DNA of 64,000 bases from positions 1,988,484-2,052,483 of the forward strand of contig NZ_AP025523.1 of assembly GCF_027923555.1 (NCBI RefSeq), in the 5' to 3' direction. Under the pieces are notes generated by a model. It saw only the letters and a list, made by a program, of their open reading frames with translations. It had not been told where the DNA came from and made no database searches. Shown here piece after piece: positions 4,004 to 62,998 of this stretch; position 1 is the first letter of the stretch, and every line of letters begins with the position of its first letter. The stretch comes from Vulcanimicrobium alpinum (GTDB lineage: Bacteria; Vulcanimicrobiota; Vulcanimicrobiia; Vulcanimicrobiales; Vulcanimicrobiaceae). Position numbers and translations under genes: made by a program.

Positions 4004-4549
4004 TTACTCCGAGGCGGCGGCGTCGCCGAGGTCGGCGCCGACCGCGGCGAGCGCTTCGCGCGCCGACGCCGAGAACAGGATGTCGCGGAACTTCAGGCCG
4101 GCCGGCAGCGAGCCGGCGTCCTTCTTCTTGGCGGTGCCGCCGAGGATCTTGACGCCGTCCTTGAGATCGCGCACCTTGCCGTGCGCTTTGAGCGACTGGG
4201 GGCTGACTTCGACCGAGGTGTCCCAGCCGGCGAGATCGCCGACGTTGAGCACCGCGAACTCGGTGCGGAAATGCCCGATGTCGCGCGACTTCTGCGAGAC
4301 GCCTTTGCGCTGCGGCAGGCGCCGCGCCCACGGTGTCTGGCCGCCTTCGAACGCGGGGCCTTTGCCGCCGCCCGAGCGGACGGTCTGACCCTTGCCGCCT
4401 TCGCCGCCGGTCTTCACCATGCCCGAACCATGCCCGCGGCCGACGCGCGTGCGCTTCGGACGGGAGTGCGGATTCGGTTTGAGGGTCGCCAGCGAAAGGC
4501 TCGCCCCGTCACCCTGAGCCTGTCGAAGGGTCGTCTTCTTTTCAGCCAT
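4004..4549 (-). CDS. rplO: 50S ribosomal protein L15 with altered N terminus
   Basis: The 181-residue protein is longer than the usual 145-150. The core is clear: LKPNPHSRPKRTRVGRGHGSG, the Gly-rich TGGEGGKGQTVRSGGGKGPAFEGGQ segment and a C-terminal domain ending DAAASE. Before the core comes MAEKKTTLRQAQGDGASLSL. TLRQAQGDG is the translation of a dispersed DNA repeat (4508-4530), so the repeat lies inside the coding sequence and adds residues at the N terminus. Without an internal start, this tract must be translated. rpmD (L30), normally just upstream, is missing; rpsE ends 2 bp before. Confidence 0.95.
   Translation of the reverse strand: MAEKKTTLRQAQGDGASLSLATLKPNPHSRPKRTRVGRGHGSGMVKTGGEGGKGQTVRSGGGKGPAFEGGQTPWARRLPQRKGVSQKSRDIGHFRTEFAVLNVGDLAGWDTSVEVSPQSLKAHGKVRDLKDGVKILGGTAKKKDAGSLPAGLKFRDILFSASAREALAAVGADLGDAAASE
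4508..4530. repeat. dispersed CTGAGCCTGTCGAAG repeat inside rplO
   Basis: The plus strand has CACCCTGAGCCTGTCGAAG here, a close match to the CACGCTGAGCCTGTCGAAG unit found as a perfect inverted pair at 57645-57718 and as a half site at 21231-21252. On the coding strand it reads TLRQAQGDG in rplO. Such short palindromic units are widespread in high-GC genomes as intergenic repeats. Finding one in frame in a ribosomal protein gene is unusual. Confidence 0.8.
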
Positions 4550-51705: not shown

Positions 51706-53694
51706 TCAGCACGCGCGCAGGCGCAGCCGTGCGCTGACGTGCGAGCCGCGGCCGGGCAGGCGGCGCACCCGCAGTTCGTCGGCGAGCACCTCGGCGATCG
51801 CGAGCCCGCGGCCGCTCTCGTCCATCGCGTCGGCGGTCGTGTGCACCAAATCGAAACCCGCGCCCGAATCGACGACGTGCAGCACCGGGACGTCGCCGTC
51901 CCAGGTGAGGCCGATGTCGATCGGTCCGGGGGCGTGGCGCGCCACGTTGCCGACGAGTTCGCCGAAGATGATCTCGGCGGCATCGAGGTCGGCGTCGGGC
52001 GGGACGAGCGGGCGCAGCGACTCGACGAACGACGCCCGCGCCGCGTGGGCAGAGAACGCATCTTCCGCATCGAACGTCCAGCGGCGCTCGCGGTCGAAGG
52101 TGATCGTTAGGATCGCGACGTCGTCACGGATTCCGTCGTGCAGCACCGTGTTGCGGATCAGCCGCGCCGGCGCCGCGACGTGCGCGATCGCTTCGGCGGC
52201 CAGGATCGCGCGCACGCGTTCGAGTCCGTCCATGACGTCGCGCGTCGACTCGATCAGACCGTCGGTGTAGAGCGCGAGCAGGCCGTCTTCCGGGAGCGTC
52301 GCGCGCCACAGCGTCGGCGGCGCGTCGATCAGGCCCAGCGGCGGCCCGGCCGCGCCGCCGATCTCGCGCACGCGCGCTTCGGCGGTGCGCAGAAACGGCA
52401 TCGGATGACCGGCCGACGAGAAGGCAAAACGCCGCGTGCGCGGTTCGAGCACGCCGACGAACGCGGTGACGTAGCGGTCGGGAAACTCCGCGCACAGCGC
52501 GACGTTAGCCGCCGCGAGGATCGCGTCGGGTTCGAGCCCCTGGTACGCCGCGACGCGGATCGCATGCCGCACGCTGCTCATCAGGACGGCGGCTTCGAGC
52601 CCCTTCCCGGTCACGTCGCCGATCGAGACGACGAGGTTTCCCTGCGCCGCGAACGCGTCGTACCAGTCGCCGCCGATCTCGGCTTCCGACGCCGCGGGGA
52701 TGTAGATCGCGTCCAGACCGATGTCCTCGATCCGCGGGAGCGACTGCGGAAGCGCGGCGAGCTGGAACGTGTCGGCGACGCGCCGCTCCCGCTCGAACGC
52801 GCGCGCGTTCTCGATCGCGAGCGCGAGACGCTTGGCGATCAGTTCCGCCGTCCGCAGGTCGATCGCGTCGAAGGTGCGTTCGCCGGCGCCGTTCGAGAAT
52901 TGCAGTGCGCCGAAGACGCGGCCGCGGCCGCGCATCGGCACGATGATCCCGCTCTGGATGTCGAGGCGTTCGAGCATCGCGCGATGGCGCGCGTCGCGCG
53001 CGGCGGCGCCGCGGAGTTCGGGCGGCACGACCGGGATGAACAGCGTCTCACCGGTATCGATGACGCGCGCGGTCGGGCTGCGATACCCGACGGGATAGAG
53101 CGCGACCATCTCGCGGGCGAGGGTGACTTTGGCCGGATCGCGGTGGTGGATTGCGGGCGTCTCGATCGTACCGTCGTCGCACAGGAGATGGATGACGCAC
53201 CAGTCGGCGACGTTCGGCACGACGAGACCGACGGCCCAGAAGACCTGATCGAGGTCGAGCGCGCTCGCGAGCGCGTCGTTGATGTCGCCGAGCAATTGCA
53301 GCGCGAATTCGTTGCGCTTCGGCACGTCGACGTCGACGGCCGTGCCGATCCAGTCGACGACGTCACCGTCGGGGCCGATGCGCGGTGCGACCGATGCGTG
53401 ATGCCAGCGAAACCCGCCGTCGGCGCGGCGGATGCGGAAATCGATCTCGCCCGGCTCGCGCCGCAGGCGGCGCGCCTTCCAGTAATCGTTGACGCGAACG
53501 CGGTCGTCGGGGTGGACGAACTGCTCGGTCACCTCGAAGCGCGAGAGGCCGAGCACGTCGGAGCCGGTGTACTCCCGCCAGCGCTCGTTGGCGTAGACGA
53601 GCCCGGCGTCGGGCGCGGTGATCCACACCAGAACCGGCAGGCTGGCGGTGATGGACGGATCGACGGCACGCTCGGCGCGCTGTGGGCTGCGCAC
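51706..53694 (-). CDS. PAS-GAF-SpoIIE phosphatase-HATPase sensor protein
   Basis: The 662-residue protein is a shorter paralogue of 24623-27460. PAS (about 15-130), GAF (140-320), SpoIIE PP2C (340-520) and RsbW-like ATPase (535-662). Metal-site motifs are IGGDWYDAF, SIGDVTGKGLEAAV, LYTDGLIE and RDDVAILT. The ATPase shows GELVGNVARHAPG and GRGLAIAEVL. It would couple a bound signal to dephosphorylation of a STAS antagonist. It is third in an operon after a DUF11-like protein and a membrane-anchored protein (gaps of 1 and 12 bp). No STAS gene is nearby. Confidence 0.9.
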   Translation of the reverse strand: MRSPQRAERAVDPSITASLPVLVWITAPDAGLVYANERWREYTGSDVLGLSRFEVTEQFVHPDDRVRVNDYWKARRLRREPGEIDFRIRRADGGFRWHHASVAPRIGPDGDVVDWIGTAVDVDVPKRNEFALQLLGDINDALASALDLDQVFWAVGLVVPNVADWCVIHLLCDDGTIETPAIHHRDPAKVTLAREMVALYPVGYRSPTARVIDTGETLFIPVVPPELRGAAARDARHRAMLERLDIQSGIIVPMRGRGRVFGALQFSNGAGERTFDAIDLRTAELIAKRLALAIENARAFERERRVADTFQLAALPQSLPRIEDIGLDAIYIPAASEAEIGGDWYDAFAAQGNLVVSIGDVTGKGLEAAVLMSSVRHAIRVAAYQGLEPDAILAAANVALCAEFPDRYVTAFVGVLEPRTRRFAFSSAGHPMPFLRTAEARVREIGGAAGPPLGLIDAPPTLWRATLPEDGLLALYTDGLIESTRDVMDGLERVRAILAAEAIAHVAAPARLIRNTVLHDGIRDDVAILTITFDRERRWTFDAEDAFSAHAARASFVESLRPLVPPDADLDAAEIIFGELVGNVARHAPGPIDIGLTWDGDVPVLHVVDSGAGFDLVHTTADAMDESGRGLAIAEVLADELRVRRLPGRGSHVSARLRLRAC

Positions 53695-53706
53695 GTCGAG
53701 GGTGGA

Positions 53707-54282
53707 TTACCTGCGGGGAGCGCCCGCGCCCTCCGTCGCGCGGGGTGCGCATGCAGCCAGCGCTGCTCGTGCGGCGGCCAGCACCTCGGGTGCGGTCTCT
53801 TCGCGCGTCGCCAGTTCGAGGATCGGCAGGCACCACACGGCGCGGACGATCGCCAAATCACCGAGTAAGCGGATGCGTGCTTCGTCGTCAAGCTCGCCGA
53901 CGCGCGGATCGAATCGCTGCGGCCACGTGATCGCCGGCGGATCGGACGCGTGTCCGGCGTGCGCATCGGTCTCGGCGGCGGTGTTTGGCGAGACCTCGGG
54001 TTCGTGCCGCTCGGAGACGTCGGGTGCGTGATGCGCGTCGCGCACGCCGTTCGCAACGGCGCCGGCTCCGCTCGCCGCGGCGGCGCGCCGGAGCGTCGCT
54101 TCGCCGACGACATCGTAGGCGACGTCGTCGTCGTACTCGATCCCGTCGTCGCGATCTGCCGACCGGTCGCGCCCGTGCGTATTCCGCACCCCGACCGCCT
54201 GCCGCAGCGACGCGTTGCGCAAAATCACCGCCACGCCCGCCGCTACCGCGACGAGCGCAAGGACGACGAACAGCACCCACAT
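53707..54282 (-). CDS. membrane-anchored hypothetical protein
   Basis: The 191-residue protein begins MWVLFVVLALVAVAAGVAVI, one transmembrane anchor. A long disordered, Asp/Ala/His-rich stretch (about 35-120) is followed by a helical C-terminal segment (ELDDEARIRLLGDLAIVRAV, then ILELATREETAPEVLAAARA). The order of anchor and basic flank (RNASLRQ) suggests the tail faces the cytoplasm. No family is recognised. It lies 1 bp after the DUF11-like gene and 12 bp before the SpoIIE phosphatase, so it may link the two. Confidence 0.65.
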   Translation of the reverse strand: MWVLFVVLALVAVAAGVAVILRNASLRQAVGVRNTHGRDRSADRDDGIEYDDDVAYDVVGEATLRRAAAASGAGAVANGVRDAHHAPDVSERHEPEVSPNTAAETDAHAGHASDPPAITWPQRFDPRVGELDDEARIRLLGDLAIVRAVWCLPILELATREETAPEVLAAARAALAACAPRATEGAGAPRR

Positions 54283-54283
54283 G

Positions 54284-57200
54284 TTACGCGCGCACCCGGC
54301 GCTGATCGCCGAGCGCCCGCAGCAGCGACTCGCGCTCGATCTCGAGCTCGACGTCGACCGGCGCGTGCAGCCCCGTGGCGAACTCGGTCGGGTTGAGCGC
54401 TTCCATCGCGGTCAGCGTGCGCTGCAGCGCGTCGCGATACGGGCTGAAGTCGGCGACGCTCTCGCCGTCGCGCTCGAGCGAGGTCCCGAGCAACATGGTC
54501 GCCACCCGCCACGGCGCCGCCGTCACCAGCTTGGCGCGTTCGAGCAAGGAGGCCGCGGAAGCCAGTTCGTCGGCACCGACCGTGCCGATGAGCTGCAGCC
54601 CGGTCTCCTCGATACCGGCGTACGAGGTGTGCGCGCGCAGCGCTTCAATCGCCGCCTGCAACGCGACGCGCGCGCCGCGCGTCTCGATGTCGTCGCGTTC
54701 GAGCACGGATTTCGGCACGCGCAGTTTGATGAAGAGCCGGTCGACGAGTTCGTCGACGAGCGCGCCGTACGCGACGAGCGCCGACGTCGCCTCCGGCGTT
54801 TCGGCGCGGTTGGGCGTGAGCGCGCGCAGGACCATCAGGTGGCCGAGCAGCCCCGGGAAGCGCGCCTCCTCGAGATACTGCACCGTCCACTCCAGGCGTT
54901 CGGCCGTGAGCGCGAGCGCGACGGTCGCGGCATGCGGAGCGGGGTGTTCCGGCGCGGCGATCAGCTGCGCGAGCTCGTCGGCCGGGATCGCCGTGTCGGT
55001 GCGCGCGCCGTTGGTGCCGCGCACCGGAACCGCCGGCGGGAGCTGGATGTAGGTCGTCTCGCCGGGGAGCGCCGCTTGCTGGTGACGCACGCCTTGGATC
55101 CGGCCTGCGGCGGCGTCGAGGACGGAGAACGGGAGCGTCGGGTCGACGATCGGCAGCGCCGGCGCGGAACGGACGCGCAGCGGCTCGGCCTGCACGACCA
55201 TCTCCGGCTGCTCGTCCCACAGCACGTGCGCGCGCGTTTCGATCGTGCTCCCCGCCGGGACCGGCGTGTTGACGATCATCCGCAGCCGCGCGATCACCTC
55301 GACGCCTGCGCCGACGTCGCCGAGCGTGAGCCCGCTGGCGACGAGCAGCGGCGACGTCCCGGCGAAGTCGAGCAGCGCGACGTCGTTGACGGTCGTGCTG
55401 CCGGGCGCGTAGACGGCGTTGGTCGGCGCGTCGAGCCGCGCGTTGAGGCGCTTCGCGGCGCCGTCGCCGTGGTTGCGCAGCGAGAGCGTGTAGACGATCT
55501 CGTCGCCTGCGTCGACGGCTTCGGCCGGCAGCGCCGTGAGCGTCGCGCCTTCCGCGAACGACGCCTCGGCGTGCGTTTCCAGCGTCATCGATTCGAGCGA
55601 GAACGGCACGACGTTGAGGCCGCTGAGGCGCGCGCCGACCTCGAGGCTGTCGTCGGCGCTCACGCTGCCGACGAGCCGCAAGTGAACGATCGCCTCGCGC
55701 GACTCTTGCGCCGGCACTTCGCCGAACACGACGGTGTCGCCGTCGCGCGATGCGCCTTCGACGTTTTCGAGCCGCAGCTCGTCGGTGAGGAACAGCCGCA
55801 CGCGCACGTCCCGACCGCGATCCGTCCCCTCGTTGTGCAGCGTCAGCTTGCAGGCGGTGGTGCGGTTGGGGCGTAGCACCTCGTTGCCCTCGAGGACCAG
55901 CGCCGAGCCCTTGGTCGAGAAGCGCGGGCGCGACGACGCGACGTGGACCGCCGAGCCGAGATCGATCTCGTCGAGCTGCGCGGTCTGCAGGCGCGCCCGC
56001 ACGCGCAGCTGCGTCTGGTCTTCGATCGCCGGGGCGACGCGCGCTTCGAGCTTGATCGTGCGCGCGGCGCTCGGTTCGAGCTTGTCGAGATGGACCGCGC
56101 CGTCGTCGCCGATCGTCAGCTCCCCGTCGCGGTCGCTCGCTTTGAGCTGCGAGAGCCCTTCGTCGACGTCGAGCTGGAGGCGCGCGTCGGTCGCGGCGTC
56201 GGTCCCCATGTTCTCGATGCGGATGGTGAAGACGGCGGCGTCGCCGGGCGAGACGCGCTTGGGCGTCTCGCGCTCGATCGTGTTGAACGCGGCGGGGAAC
56301 GCCGGCGCCGAGCGGACGGTGACGGCGCGGTCGAAGCTCCGATCGCCTTTCGCCCAATCGATCCGCGCCGCAAACGGCAATTCGGTGCCGTTCTTCACCG
56401 GCGAGCGGACGATCCCGGCGAGAGAGACTTCGACCGAGCGCCCCGGCTCGAGATCGCCGAGTTCGAAGAGCCCGAAGTCTTTCTCGCGGTCGACCAGCGT
56501 CGCGCCGTCGACGCGCCGCGAGCCGCCGGAATAGGTGAAGCCGTCGGGGAGCTTGATCTTCACCTTCACGTTGCGCGCGCGGGCGGTGCCGATGTTGCGC
56601 GCGCGGGCGGTGAGGCGGATGCGCTGACCGGGAACGACGTCGTCTTCGCAGTCGACGGTGAACGAGGTCTCTTCGCCGGCGAACGACGGCTTGGAAGGGA
56701 TCTTGAGCGTCACCGTCGCGAGCGCGAACTCCGGGAGTTCCTGCGAGCAAACGGAACCGCGCGCGGCGATCGCGGTGGCGTCTTCGAGCGTCGCGTCGAT
56801 CCGCACGCGGTAACCGACGTCGAGCGTCGCGCCCGGGCCGAGCGTCGGCGCGACGATCGTCGGGCGCGACGGACCAAACGGTTCGGCATCGCCCTCCGCC
56901 GGCGCGCGGCCGTCGACCTTCGCCGAACCCGCGACGTACGATGTGTGCGCGGGGAGCGGCAGCAGTACGATCACGTCGTGCGCGCTCGATTGGCCGCTGT
57001 TGTGGATCTGCGCGCGGAGCTGGAGTTCGGCGTCGGGCACCGCTTCGCGCACCGGCGTGAGCGAGAGCTTCGTCGTCGACCCCTGCAGCGTCGGGCGGCT
57101 GCGCACGACGAGCCGCACGACGTTGGAACCGATGAGCGGGACTTCGAACGAGGCGATCGCCGCCTGCAGCGCGATCTGCGTCCCGTTCTCGATCGTCGGC

Positions 57201-57535
57201 GCGACGCTGTAGGCGAGCGAGATGCGCCGCTCGCCGCCCGGCGGGACGTCGCCGATGCTCGCGCCCGAACTCTGCAGCAGCGACGTGAGCCCGCCGTGCT
57301 CGTCGATCGCGGTATCGTCGATGCGTGCCGTTCCGACGAGATACGTGAGCCCCTCAGGGAGCCGGAACCGGACGCGGAATCCGGTCGCCGTCCCACCGCC
57401 GAAGTTGCGGAACGTGAACGTCGCGTGGATCGTCTGCCCGGGTTCGATGGTGCGGCCCGGCGAGACGTTGAGCGTGCGTAGCCCCTCGGGCAACGGAGCG
57501 GTACCCGGAGCGAAGACGTCGGTCATCGTGCGCAT
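54284..57535 (-). CDS. large protein with six DUF11-like repeats and helical C-terminal domain
   Basis: The 1083-residue protein holds six diverged units of about 120 residues, each with the pattern VxPGxxIxxTxxxxNxGxxxAxxVxxxxxLPxG followed by GSxxVDG. Examples are ATFTFRNFGGGTATGFRVRF, RLTARARNIGTARARNVKVK, FTIRIENMGTDAATDARLQL and YTLSLRNHGDGAAKRLNARL. DUF11 repeats are immunoglobulin-like and common in surface proteins. From about 775 a different, mostly helical domain of about 300 residues follows. There is no signal peptide or anchor (start MRTMTDVFAPG), which is odd for such repeats. It leads an operon with a membrane protein and a SpoIIE phosphatase. Function unknown. Confidence 0.8.
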   Translation of the reverse strand: MRTMTDVFAPGTAPLPEGLRTLNVSPGRTIEPGQTIHATFTFRNFGGGTATGFRVRFRLPEGLTYLVGTARIDDTAIDEHGGLTSLLQSSGASIGDVPPGGERRISLAYSVAPTIENGTQIALQAAIASFEVPLIGSNVVRLVVRSRPTLQGSTTKLSLTPVREAVPDAELQLRAQIHNSGQSSAHDVIVLLPLPAHTSYVAGSAKVDGRAPAEGDAEPFGPSRPTIVAPTLGPGATLDVGYRVRIDATLEDATAIAARGSVCSQELPEFALATVTLKIPSKPSFAGEETSFTVDCEDDVVPGQRIRLTARARNIGTARARNVKVKIKLPDGFTYSGGSRRVDGATLVDREKDFGLFELGDLEPGRSVEVSLAGIVRSPVKNGTELPFAARIDWAKGDRSFDRAVTVRSAPAFPAAFNTIERETPKRVSPGDAAVFTIRIENMGTDAATDARLQLDVDEGLSQLKASDRDGELTIGDDGAVHLDKLEPSAARTIKLEARVAPAIEDQTQLRVRARLQTAQLDEIDLGSAVHVASSRPRFSTKGSALVLEGNEVLRPNRTTACKLTLHNEGTDRGRDVRVRLFLTDELRLENVEGASRDGDTVVFGEVPAQESREAIVHLRLVGSVSADDSLEVGARLSGLNVVPFSLESMTLETHAEASFAEGATLTALPAEAVDAGDEIVYTLSLRNHGDGAAKRLNARLDAPTNAVYAPGSTTVNDVALLDFAGTSPLLVASGLTLGDVGAGVEVIARLRMIVNTPVPAGSTIETRAHVLWDEQPEMVVQAEPLRVRSAPALPIVDPTLPFSVLDAAAGRIQGVRHQQAALPGETTYIQLPPAVPVRGTNGARTDTAIPADELAQLIAAPEHPAPHAATVALALTAERLEWTVQYLEEARFPGLLGHLMVLRALTPNRAETPEATSALVAYGALVDELVDRLFIKLRVPKSVLERDDIETRGARVALQAAIEALRAHTSYAGIEETGLQLIGTVGADELASAASLLERAKLVTAAPWRVATMLLGTSLERDGESVADFSPYRDALQRTLTAMEALNPTEFATGLHAPVDVELEIERESLLRALGDQRRVRA

Positions 57536-61688: not shown

Positions 61689-62998
61689 TCACCGTCGTCG
61701 TTTTTTACGACTGCCCAGGGGATGTGGCGGACGCGGTCCTTCGACGAGGTCGTCGGGGCACGGACGTACCGGTCCCTCGGCGTGCGTGTTGCCAGAAGGA
61801 CTCGCGAGAGCGCGCTCCAGGTCGGCGAAGGCGTCGATCAACTCAACGGCCTCGAAGCTGCGATTGCGCCGAGCACCGGTGGTTTCGATCAGGATGCGGG
61901 CGCGCACGAGCACCTCAATCGCGGTGCTGGTGTTGGTGAAGTTGCGGCCGATGAGCTTCTGCGCCGAGCTGATCGTGATAATCGGTGCCGCCGGCAGATG
62001 CGCTAAGAGCTGAAGTGCTCCCGCGTCCGCGCGCAGCGAGCCCAGGCGCGTGCGCCACGTCGCGACGAGCGCTTCGATGCGGTCCTCGAATGCGACGGCG
62101 TCATGAGCGGCACGCGTACATGCACCGGCAAACATCGCGATCCACGCCTCCATTGCGGCGTTAGCGACGGGTCCTTCAGGCGGTCCGTCGTAACGGGTTG
62201 CGTTCAACGCGTGCACATATGCGCCGGCGCTCGTCGCAAGGATGAGCGATACCGGAGGCACCGTCCTGAGTGCAAGGCCCCGTCGACGGAGCACCATTGC
62301 GATGAGCGCGCGGCCGGTGCGTCCGTTGCCATCGATGAAGGGGTGGATCGTTTCGAACTGCGCGTGCGCGATCGCAGCTTGCACGACCGGCGAAACACTG
62401 TCGCCGTTGCAGAAACCGCAGAGGTCCTCGAGCAGTTCAGGAACGAGTTCGGGAGGCGGAGGGACAAAATCTGCCCCGTTCGGCGAGTTGTCGTGTCGCC
62501 CGATCCAATTCTGCACGTGCCGAAGCCCCGTACGATCCGCCAAGGTTGTCGGACGCAATAGCGCCTCTTGCACGTCGACCAACCGCGCGGTGGTAATCGG
62601 CTCCGCGGCATTCCGCAGTGCGCGCATCATCGCGTCGACGTTTCCGAGCACCTCGTCGGCTGTCGGATTCGGCGCGGGTCGACACCGGCTGCCGCTCTGA
62701 GCACACGCGCCGGAGCGATTCTCAGGCCCTCGATATGCGACGACGCAACGGACTCTGCGCGCAACAGCAGGCGCGCAAGCGCCTCGGTGTCGGCAAGGGC
62801 ACGCGCGCGCGCATCGAGACGCGCAATTGCCAGTTCGGCATCGGAGACATCTGCCGCGATGTCCGCTGACAGAATGAAGCGTCGGCCGGCAAGCTGATCA
62901 GGGATGTAGGCCTGGTAGCGCCCGCTCCACCGCTCGCGGCGAGGAACCCCGATCCCCGCCTGCGGGGCGGTCCAAAGATGCGTTACATAGGTCCCCAC
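61689..62998 (-). pseudogene. Fic family protein, frameshifted
   Basis: The first frame (GTG at 62998) gives the N terminus with the inhibitory-helix motif SSHIEG (S/TxxxEG), then breaks at about 62676-62678. The second frame continues APNPTADEVLGNVDAMMRAL and holds the catalytic HPFIDGNGRTGR motif and a C-terminal winged helix (TISSAQKLIGRNFTNTSTAI). One more C in a CCC run rejoins them into about 435 residues, the normal length for Fic/wHTH proteins. Fic enzymes AMPylate target proteins; this class carries its own inhibitory helix. It lies just downstream of an AbrB/MazE-like antitoxin remnant. Confidence 0.8.

Follow-up and report, generated by a model that had tools for sequence, protein, structure and literature searches.

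DUF11 repeats usually occur in surface proteins, and bacterial Ig-like arrays have been taken as extracellular parts; in the case described here, a whole order appears to keep them inside the cell. The protein concerned, here called IgR, shares tandem Ig-like domains with the DUF11/B_ant_repeat proteins (TIGR01451, PF01345) and differs from them in being predicted not to be exported, in carrying a lineage-specific C-terminal domain (CTD) and in being paired with a HEAT membrane protein. The C-terminal part of that partner's orthologues is like the HEAT_2 proteins (PF13646), from which the partner departs in being short, fused to a single transmembrane (TM) helix and always encoded beside the CTD gene. 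A third gene at the same locus has the domain content of RsbU/SpoIIE phosphatase-HATPase partner-switching proteins; it lies outside the conserved module, its linkage to the IgR and HEAT genes not being conserved. In the open-access literature we found no description of cytoplasmic DUF11 proteins or of HEAT-type pilus accessories.

The locus lies in a window of 64,000 nucleotides (the whole stretch of DNA analysed) from Vulcanimicrobium alpinum, the genome of which is one contig of 3,508,363 bases. Strain WC8-2 of this species (3.50 Mb, 68.4% GC) is reported to form type IV pili (T4P) and to show phototaxis, and its phylum has one described isolate (PMC9758169). An earlier note, made from the sequence of the window, had proposed an undescribed module of three genes spaced 1 and 12 nt apart, and three minus-strand ORFs with this spacing are indeed present (Table 1). 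When co-occurrence was checked across relatives, only two of the three stayed together, namely the genes for IgR and the membrane protein, in conserved order. The module thus consists of two genes, is specific to one order and appears to be undescribed; a three-gene module is not right. We consider it very likely that IgR and the HEAT protein form a conserved cytoplasmic pair. Elsewhere in the window, the 21-mer CTTCGACAGGCTCAGCGTGAC is repeated at positions 4508, 21231, 57645 and 57698 (4 copies with at most 1 mismatch, 0 expected), the last two copies standing just upstream of the IgR gene in inverted orientation.

Table 1. Features of the IgR locus and related elements (window coordinates unless a contig or locus is named; TM, transmembrane; AF2, AlphaFold2 model)
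Feature	Position	Strand	Basis or remark
IgR (1083 aa), with six Ig-like domains of DUF11 type, then linker and CTD; no signal peptide	54284..57535	-	start ATG
Ig-like array, residues 20-794	55154..57478	-	AF2; DUF11/NEW3/CARDB matches
Disordered linker, residues ~795-865	54941..55153	-	pLDDT<50; length varies in orthologues
CTD, residues 866-1083, found in Eremiobacterota only	54287..54940	-	AF2; 84,980-genome scan; phylum profile search
Membrane-anchored HEAT partner, 191 aa	53707..54282	-	start ATG; directly after IgR, conserved; HEAT_2 in orthologues
TM helix of partner, predicted N-out/C-in by the positive-inside rule	54220..54276	-	hydropathy
HEAT-like segment of partner, starting at ITWP motif	53755..53937	-	orthologue alignment, tblastn
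PAS-GAF-SpoIIE-HATPase protein, 662 aa; neighbour judged outside the conserved module	51706..53694	-	start GTG; Pfam domains
Second IgR-HEAT pair of the host, 899 aa + 126 aa	G000:C1:1672141, L145:7750-10826	-	type B
Fic/DOC-family protein	61689-62651	-	E 2.5e-19

IgR matches the DUF11 families of Pfam (E 7.8e-31) and of NCBIfam (DUF11-type repeat, E 9.2e-31), and the AF2 model of the whole protein (mean pLDDT 81.6) shows six Ig-like domains, in agreement with the number first proposed, followed by the linker and a well-predicted CTD. What had been read as a helical domain of about 300 residues is, according to the same model, a disordered linker of ~70 residues and an alpha/beta domain of ~215 residues. 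Modelled alone, the CTD reaches a pLDDT of 93.6 and a pTM of 0.87, and its two halves are weakly alike (hhalign E 1.2e-5), pointing to a faint internal duplication. By sequence we found no CTD relatives in the PDB, and by structure there was no convincing match (the top Foldseek hit has E 0.49, and the highest VIA-align Z is 4.7, a value that may reflect a common arrangement only), the missing match being no proof of a new fold. In three copies of genus g1 located beside the mre genes (L041, L040 and L039), the linkers between Ig array and CTD are very long and rich in proline and alanine, giving proteins of up to 1378 aa.

For the second protein, the earlier note was right about the single TM helix, which is N-terminal, and about the middle, which is long and charged, and overlooked the HEAT-like C-terminus. 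This segment is recognized through an orthologous partner (L039) that matches HEAT_2 above the cut-off (E 2.3e-6); the profile stays below the cut-off in other partners, and the partner encoded in the window matches no Pfam family. In 74 of 79 partners, more lysine and arginine residues follow the TM helix than precede it, and the HEAT part should for this reason face the cytoplasm; some HEAT partners have no TM helix. Downstream of 82 of the 90 distinct CTD ORFs there is a HEAT partner at a distance of up to 400 nt, usually between -14 and +26 nt; of the remaining eight, at least two proved on inspection by eye to have a small TM partner. A 369-aa coiled-coil protein was considered as the partner in one genome (G077) and dropped in favour of an 85-aa TM protein whose gene overlaps that of IgR by 4 nt.

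Nine codons ahead of its ATG, the reading frame of the window IgR gene is closed by a TAG stop (stop-to-stop ORF, 1092 aa), so that the protein cannot carry a signal peptide, in line with the earlier note, which saw no export signal. In orthologues, a strongly hydrophobic segment (KD>2) upstream of or at the conserved start was seen in none of 75 frames, as judged by simple hydropathy rather than by a signal-peptide predictor. In genus g12 (L055 and L067), a gene fusion has joined the TM-HEAT part with the CTD into a single protein of 393 aa, which puts CTD and HEAT on the same side of the membrane. Two other loci (L060 and L066) have CTDs without Ig repeats; in genus g12 the second IgR copy is likewise without Ig repeats, these having been lost. 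Taken together, the lack of room for a signal peptide, the topology of the partner and the TM-HEAT-CTD fusion indicate from sequence that IgR should stay in the cytoplasm. Export by a signal-less route, with an adhesin role at the surface as in other DUF11 proteins, would fit the strong DUF11 match but is highly improbable, given that no orthologue checked has a signal, that partner topology and fusion place the CTD in the cytoplasm and that the TM helix is missing from some HEAT partners. The third gene was rightly identified as encoding a PAS-GAF-SpoIIE-HATPase protein (PAS_3, GAF, SpoIIE and HATPase_c_2 are all above the Pfam cut-offs), and one could take all three genes as a single signalling unit in which a scaffold is controlled by phosphorylation. 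They share a strand, are separated by only 1 and 12 nt with no terminator-like site in either gap (a scan for promoters and terminators gave nothing above chance), and are likely co-transcribed in the host genome. Against this, a tblastn search of 60 neighbourhoods, mostly centred on IgR, for a SpoIIE homologue beside other IgR copies returned only the window protein itself, which belongs to a large paralogue family with its best relatives (45-46% identical) elsewhere on other contigs. A single three-gene unit is thus very unlikely, and SpoIIE is very probably not part of the module: it would be an accidental neighbour of the window pair. Of the phosphorylation-controlled cytoplasmic scaffold suggested earlier, the cytoplasmic Ig-repeat protein stands while the phosphorylation control finds no comparative support, the comparisons between genomes pointing to T4P and c-di-GMP instead.

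Among 149 genomes of the phylum, IgR matches were found in 80 and CTD profile matches in 83, almost all in two families (f1 and f2) of one order of the Eremiobacterota. A scan of 84,980 species genomes for the CTD, resting on one peptide pattern, gave 48 loci, and all 48 belong to Eremiobacterota/WPS-2 or to bacterial MAGs that recur in the phylum set. In the tree, CTD-HEAT pairs fall into three lineages. Pairs of type A stand between aspC and the mrdA-mreD-mreC cluster, frequently two in tandem. The window type (support 100 for its clade) clusters with tandem copy 1 from other genera, and the host genome has lost its mre-side copy, with a clean mrdA-aspC junction; the window copy is one that relocated from the ancestral locus. 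In the host, a profile-free search found one IgR copy and the CTD profile a second; this second pair belongs to type B, which in the host genus adjoins genes for a CRP-like regulator and for a GGDEF protein; in the host it is divergently oriented from both and lies near clpX/clpP/tig. Type B of family f2 adjoins GGDEF, HD domain and secretin genes, and the tree support for joining it to type B of the host genus is only 69; the GGDEF proteins of the host locus and of f2 align along ~310 aa (E ~1e-43), and both have the GGDEF motif intact. Type C forms a clade with support 99 and sits in a T4P operon. Decaying IgR genes were seen in two genomes without PilT, as fragments at the ancestral site in G053 (L070) and with a broken CTD frame in G093 (contig C22).

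A link to pili comes from type C, where the gene right behind pilQ encodes the CTD in eight genomes, all from one clade (G036, G059, G061, G094, G096, G107, G129 and G130). In complete operons, the HEAT gene comes next after pilQ-CTD, and behind it stand genes for a second PilT-like ATPase and for a diguanylate cyclase, the full order at L151 being pilB-C-A-D-M-N-O-Q-CTD-HEAT-PilT2-GGDEF, with the secretin, two T2SSE ATPases, T2SSF and PilM confirmed by Pfam. The pilQ-linked and window-type CTDs match in profile-profile comparison (Prob 98, E 2.3e-13, 202 columns), and the pilQ-CTD genomes form a clade sister to the remainder of their family in a five-gene proxy tree that sampled not all eight of them. 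A GGDEF gene beside the CTD pair recurs in the T4P clade, at the CRP-locus copy of the host and in family f2. Among f1 genomes at least 90% complete, 37 have both PilT and CTD, none PilT without CTD, 10 CTD without PilT and 10 neither (Fisher 4e-6, or 2e-5 if the truncated G053 copy is counted as present, in a test that ignores kinship of genomes). Most of this signal comes from genus g5, which is without PilT and has lost the pair repeatedly; without g5 the association has p=0.001, and with three further uncertain absences dropped as well, p=0.16. The ten near-complete f1 genomes that keep the CTD with no detectable PilT include G083 and G102 (98% each), and G093 keeps IgR with neither a secretin nor a T2SSE ATPase in the genome. 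In the host, pilQ of the T4P operon has no CTD behind it. The window copy and the mre-adjacent copies lie outside any pilus operon, and outside the order PilT is present without the CTD. For PilT, the best E values are about 1e-100 to 1e-122 in f1 and f2 and about 1e-145 in other classes of the phylum (f3 among the families compared); the divergent PilT of f1 and f2 is an order-specific pilus ATPase lineage.

The genomic position of the pair could instead place it in the cell-elongation machinery, as a cytoplasmic Ig scaffold anchored in the membrane near the MreBCD/PBP2 rod complex. In most f1 genomes the pair does stand between aspC and mrdA-mreD-mreC, convergent with mrdA, but the entire neighbourhood is conserved there (parA-parB-thiE-trpS-aspC ... 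obgE), so the mre-side position says little. Adjacency to mreBCD/mrdA is not found in all lineages: in family f2 the pair remains with aspC while the mre cluster is elsewhere, and many genomes including the host keep mreC with no pair between mrdA and aspC. MreC also occurs in 138 of the 149 genomes of the phylum, far more widely than the pair. Having rejected mre adjacency as a guide to function, since it reflects general synteny and losses of the pair leave the mre genes intact, we regard a rod-shape role as distinctly unlikely. Within the cluster itself, mreB is absent from mreC-mreD-mrdA in most f1 genera and present in g1, f2 and f3. Also unlikely is a scaffold of general use in the cytoplasm, for instance in organising the poles or the intracytoplasmic membranes, that has no specific tie to pili; the pilus and GGDEF links would then be the use made of it by one lineage. 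The several paralogous loci with differing neighbours, and the persistence of the pair in genomes without PilT, speak for this; GGDEF or secretin genes in three of the four contexts, and a CTD missing from no near-complete PilT-bearing f1 genome, speak against it.

We therefore prefer to see IgR-HEAT as a scaffold in the cytoplasm, tethered to the membrane and accessory to the divergent T4P/c-di-GMP system of the order, with a probability of about 0.5. For the CTD-HEAT family as a whole, we lean slightly towards a role in T4P and c-di-GMP signalling; for the window copy, such a role is drawn from homologues at other loci and is tentative, falling a little short of an even chance. In the scaffold that we prefer, the HEAT protein would be embedded in the inner membrane, its HEAT part facing the cytoplasm, and would hold IgR through the CTD, as the strict pairing and the fusion suggest. 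The Ig array may then serve as an extended spacer or docking surface, and the pair would probably act on the pilus ATPases or on pilus placement under c-di-GMP control. The CTD was seen in no other group searched and the array has a membrane anchor of its own; should the pair prove to be tied to pili, it would be a testable new component of twitching and phototaxis. Two protein families currently annotated as 'DUF11 protein' and 'hypothetical' can now be named.

Pseudomonas FimV is a cytosolic scaffold of T4P polarity, and IgR would work alike. IgR would also be like Myxococcus SgmX (PMC7519303), a scaffold of the same kind, in being a repeat protein of the cytoplasm through which the pilus machine is recruited or stimulated. 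Compared with SgmX and FimV, it has an Ig array and CTD instead of TPRs, together with a paired HEAT anchor, and the likeness lies in the proposed function. The best whole-model Foldseek matches to IgR in the PDB are chains of the ciliary central apparatus (E 1.3e-23), which also contain long cytoplasmic Ig arrays; the TM-scores are low (0.1-0.17), and we take this as a shared repeat type and claim no homology. In the fullest form of the comparison, a bacterial Ig-array protein of the cytoplasm, its CTD having a new fold, would act as an extended, inner-membrane-tethered scaffold that couples c-di-GMP signalling to T4P in a phototactic order, analogous to the filamin and ciliary Ig arrays of eukaryotes, a picture that we consider doubtful as a whole.
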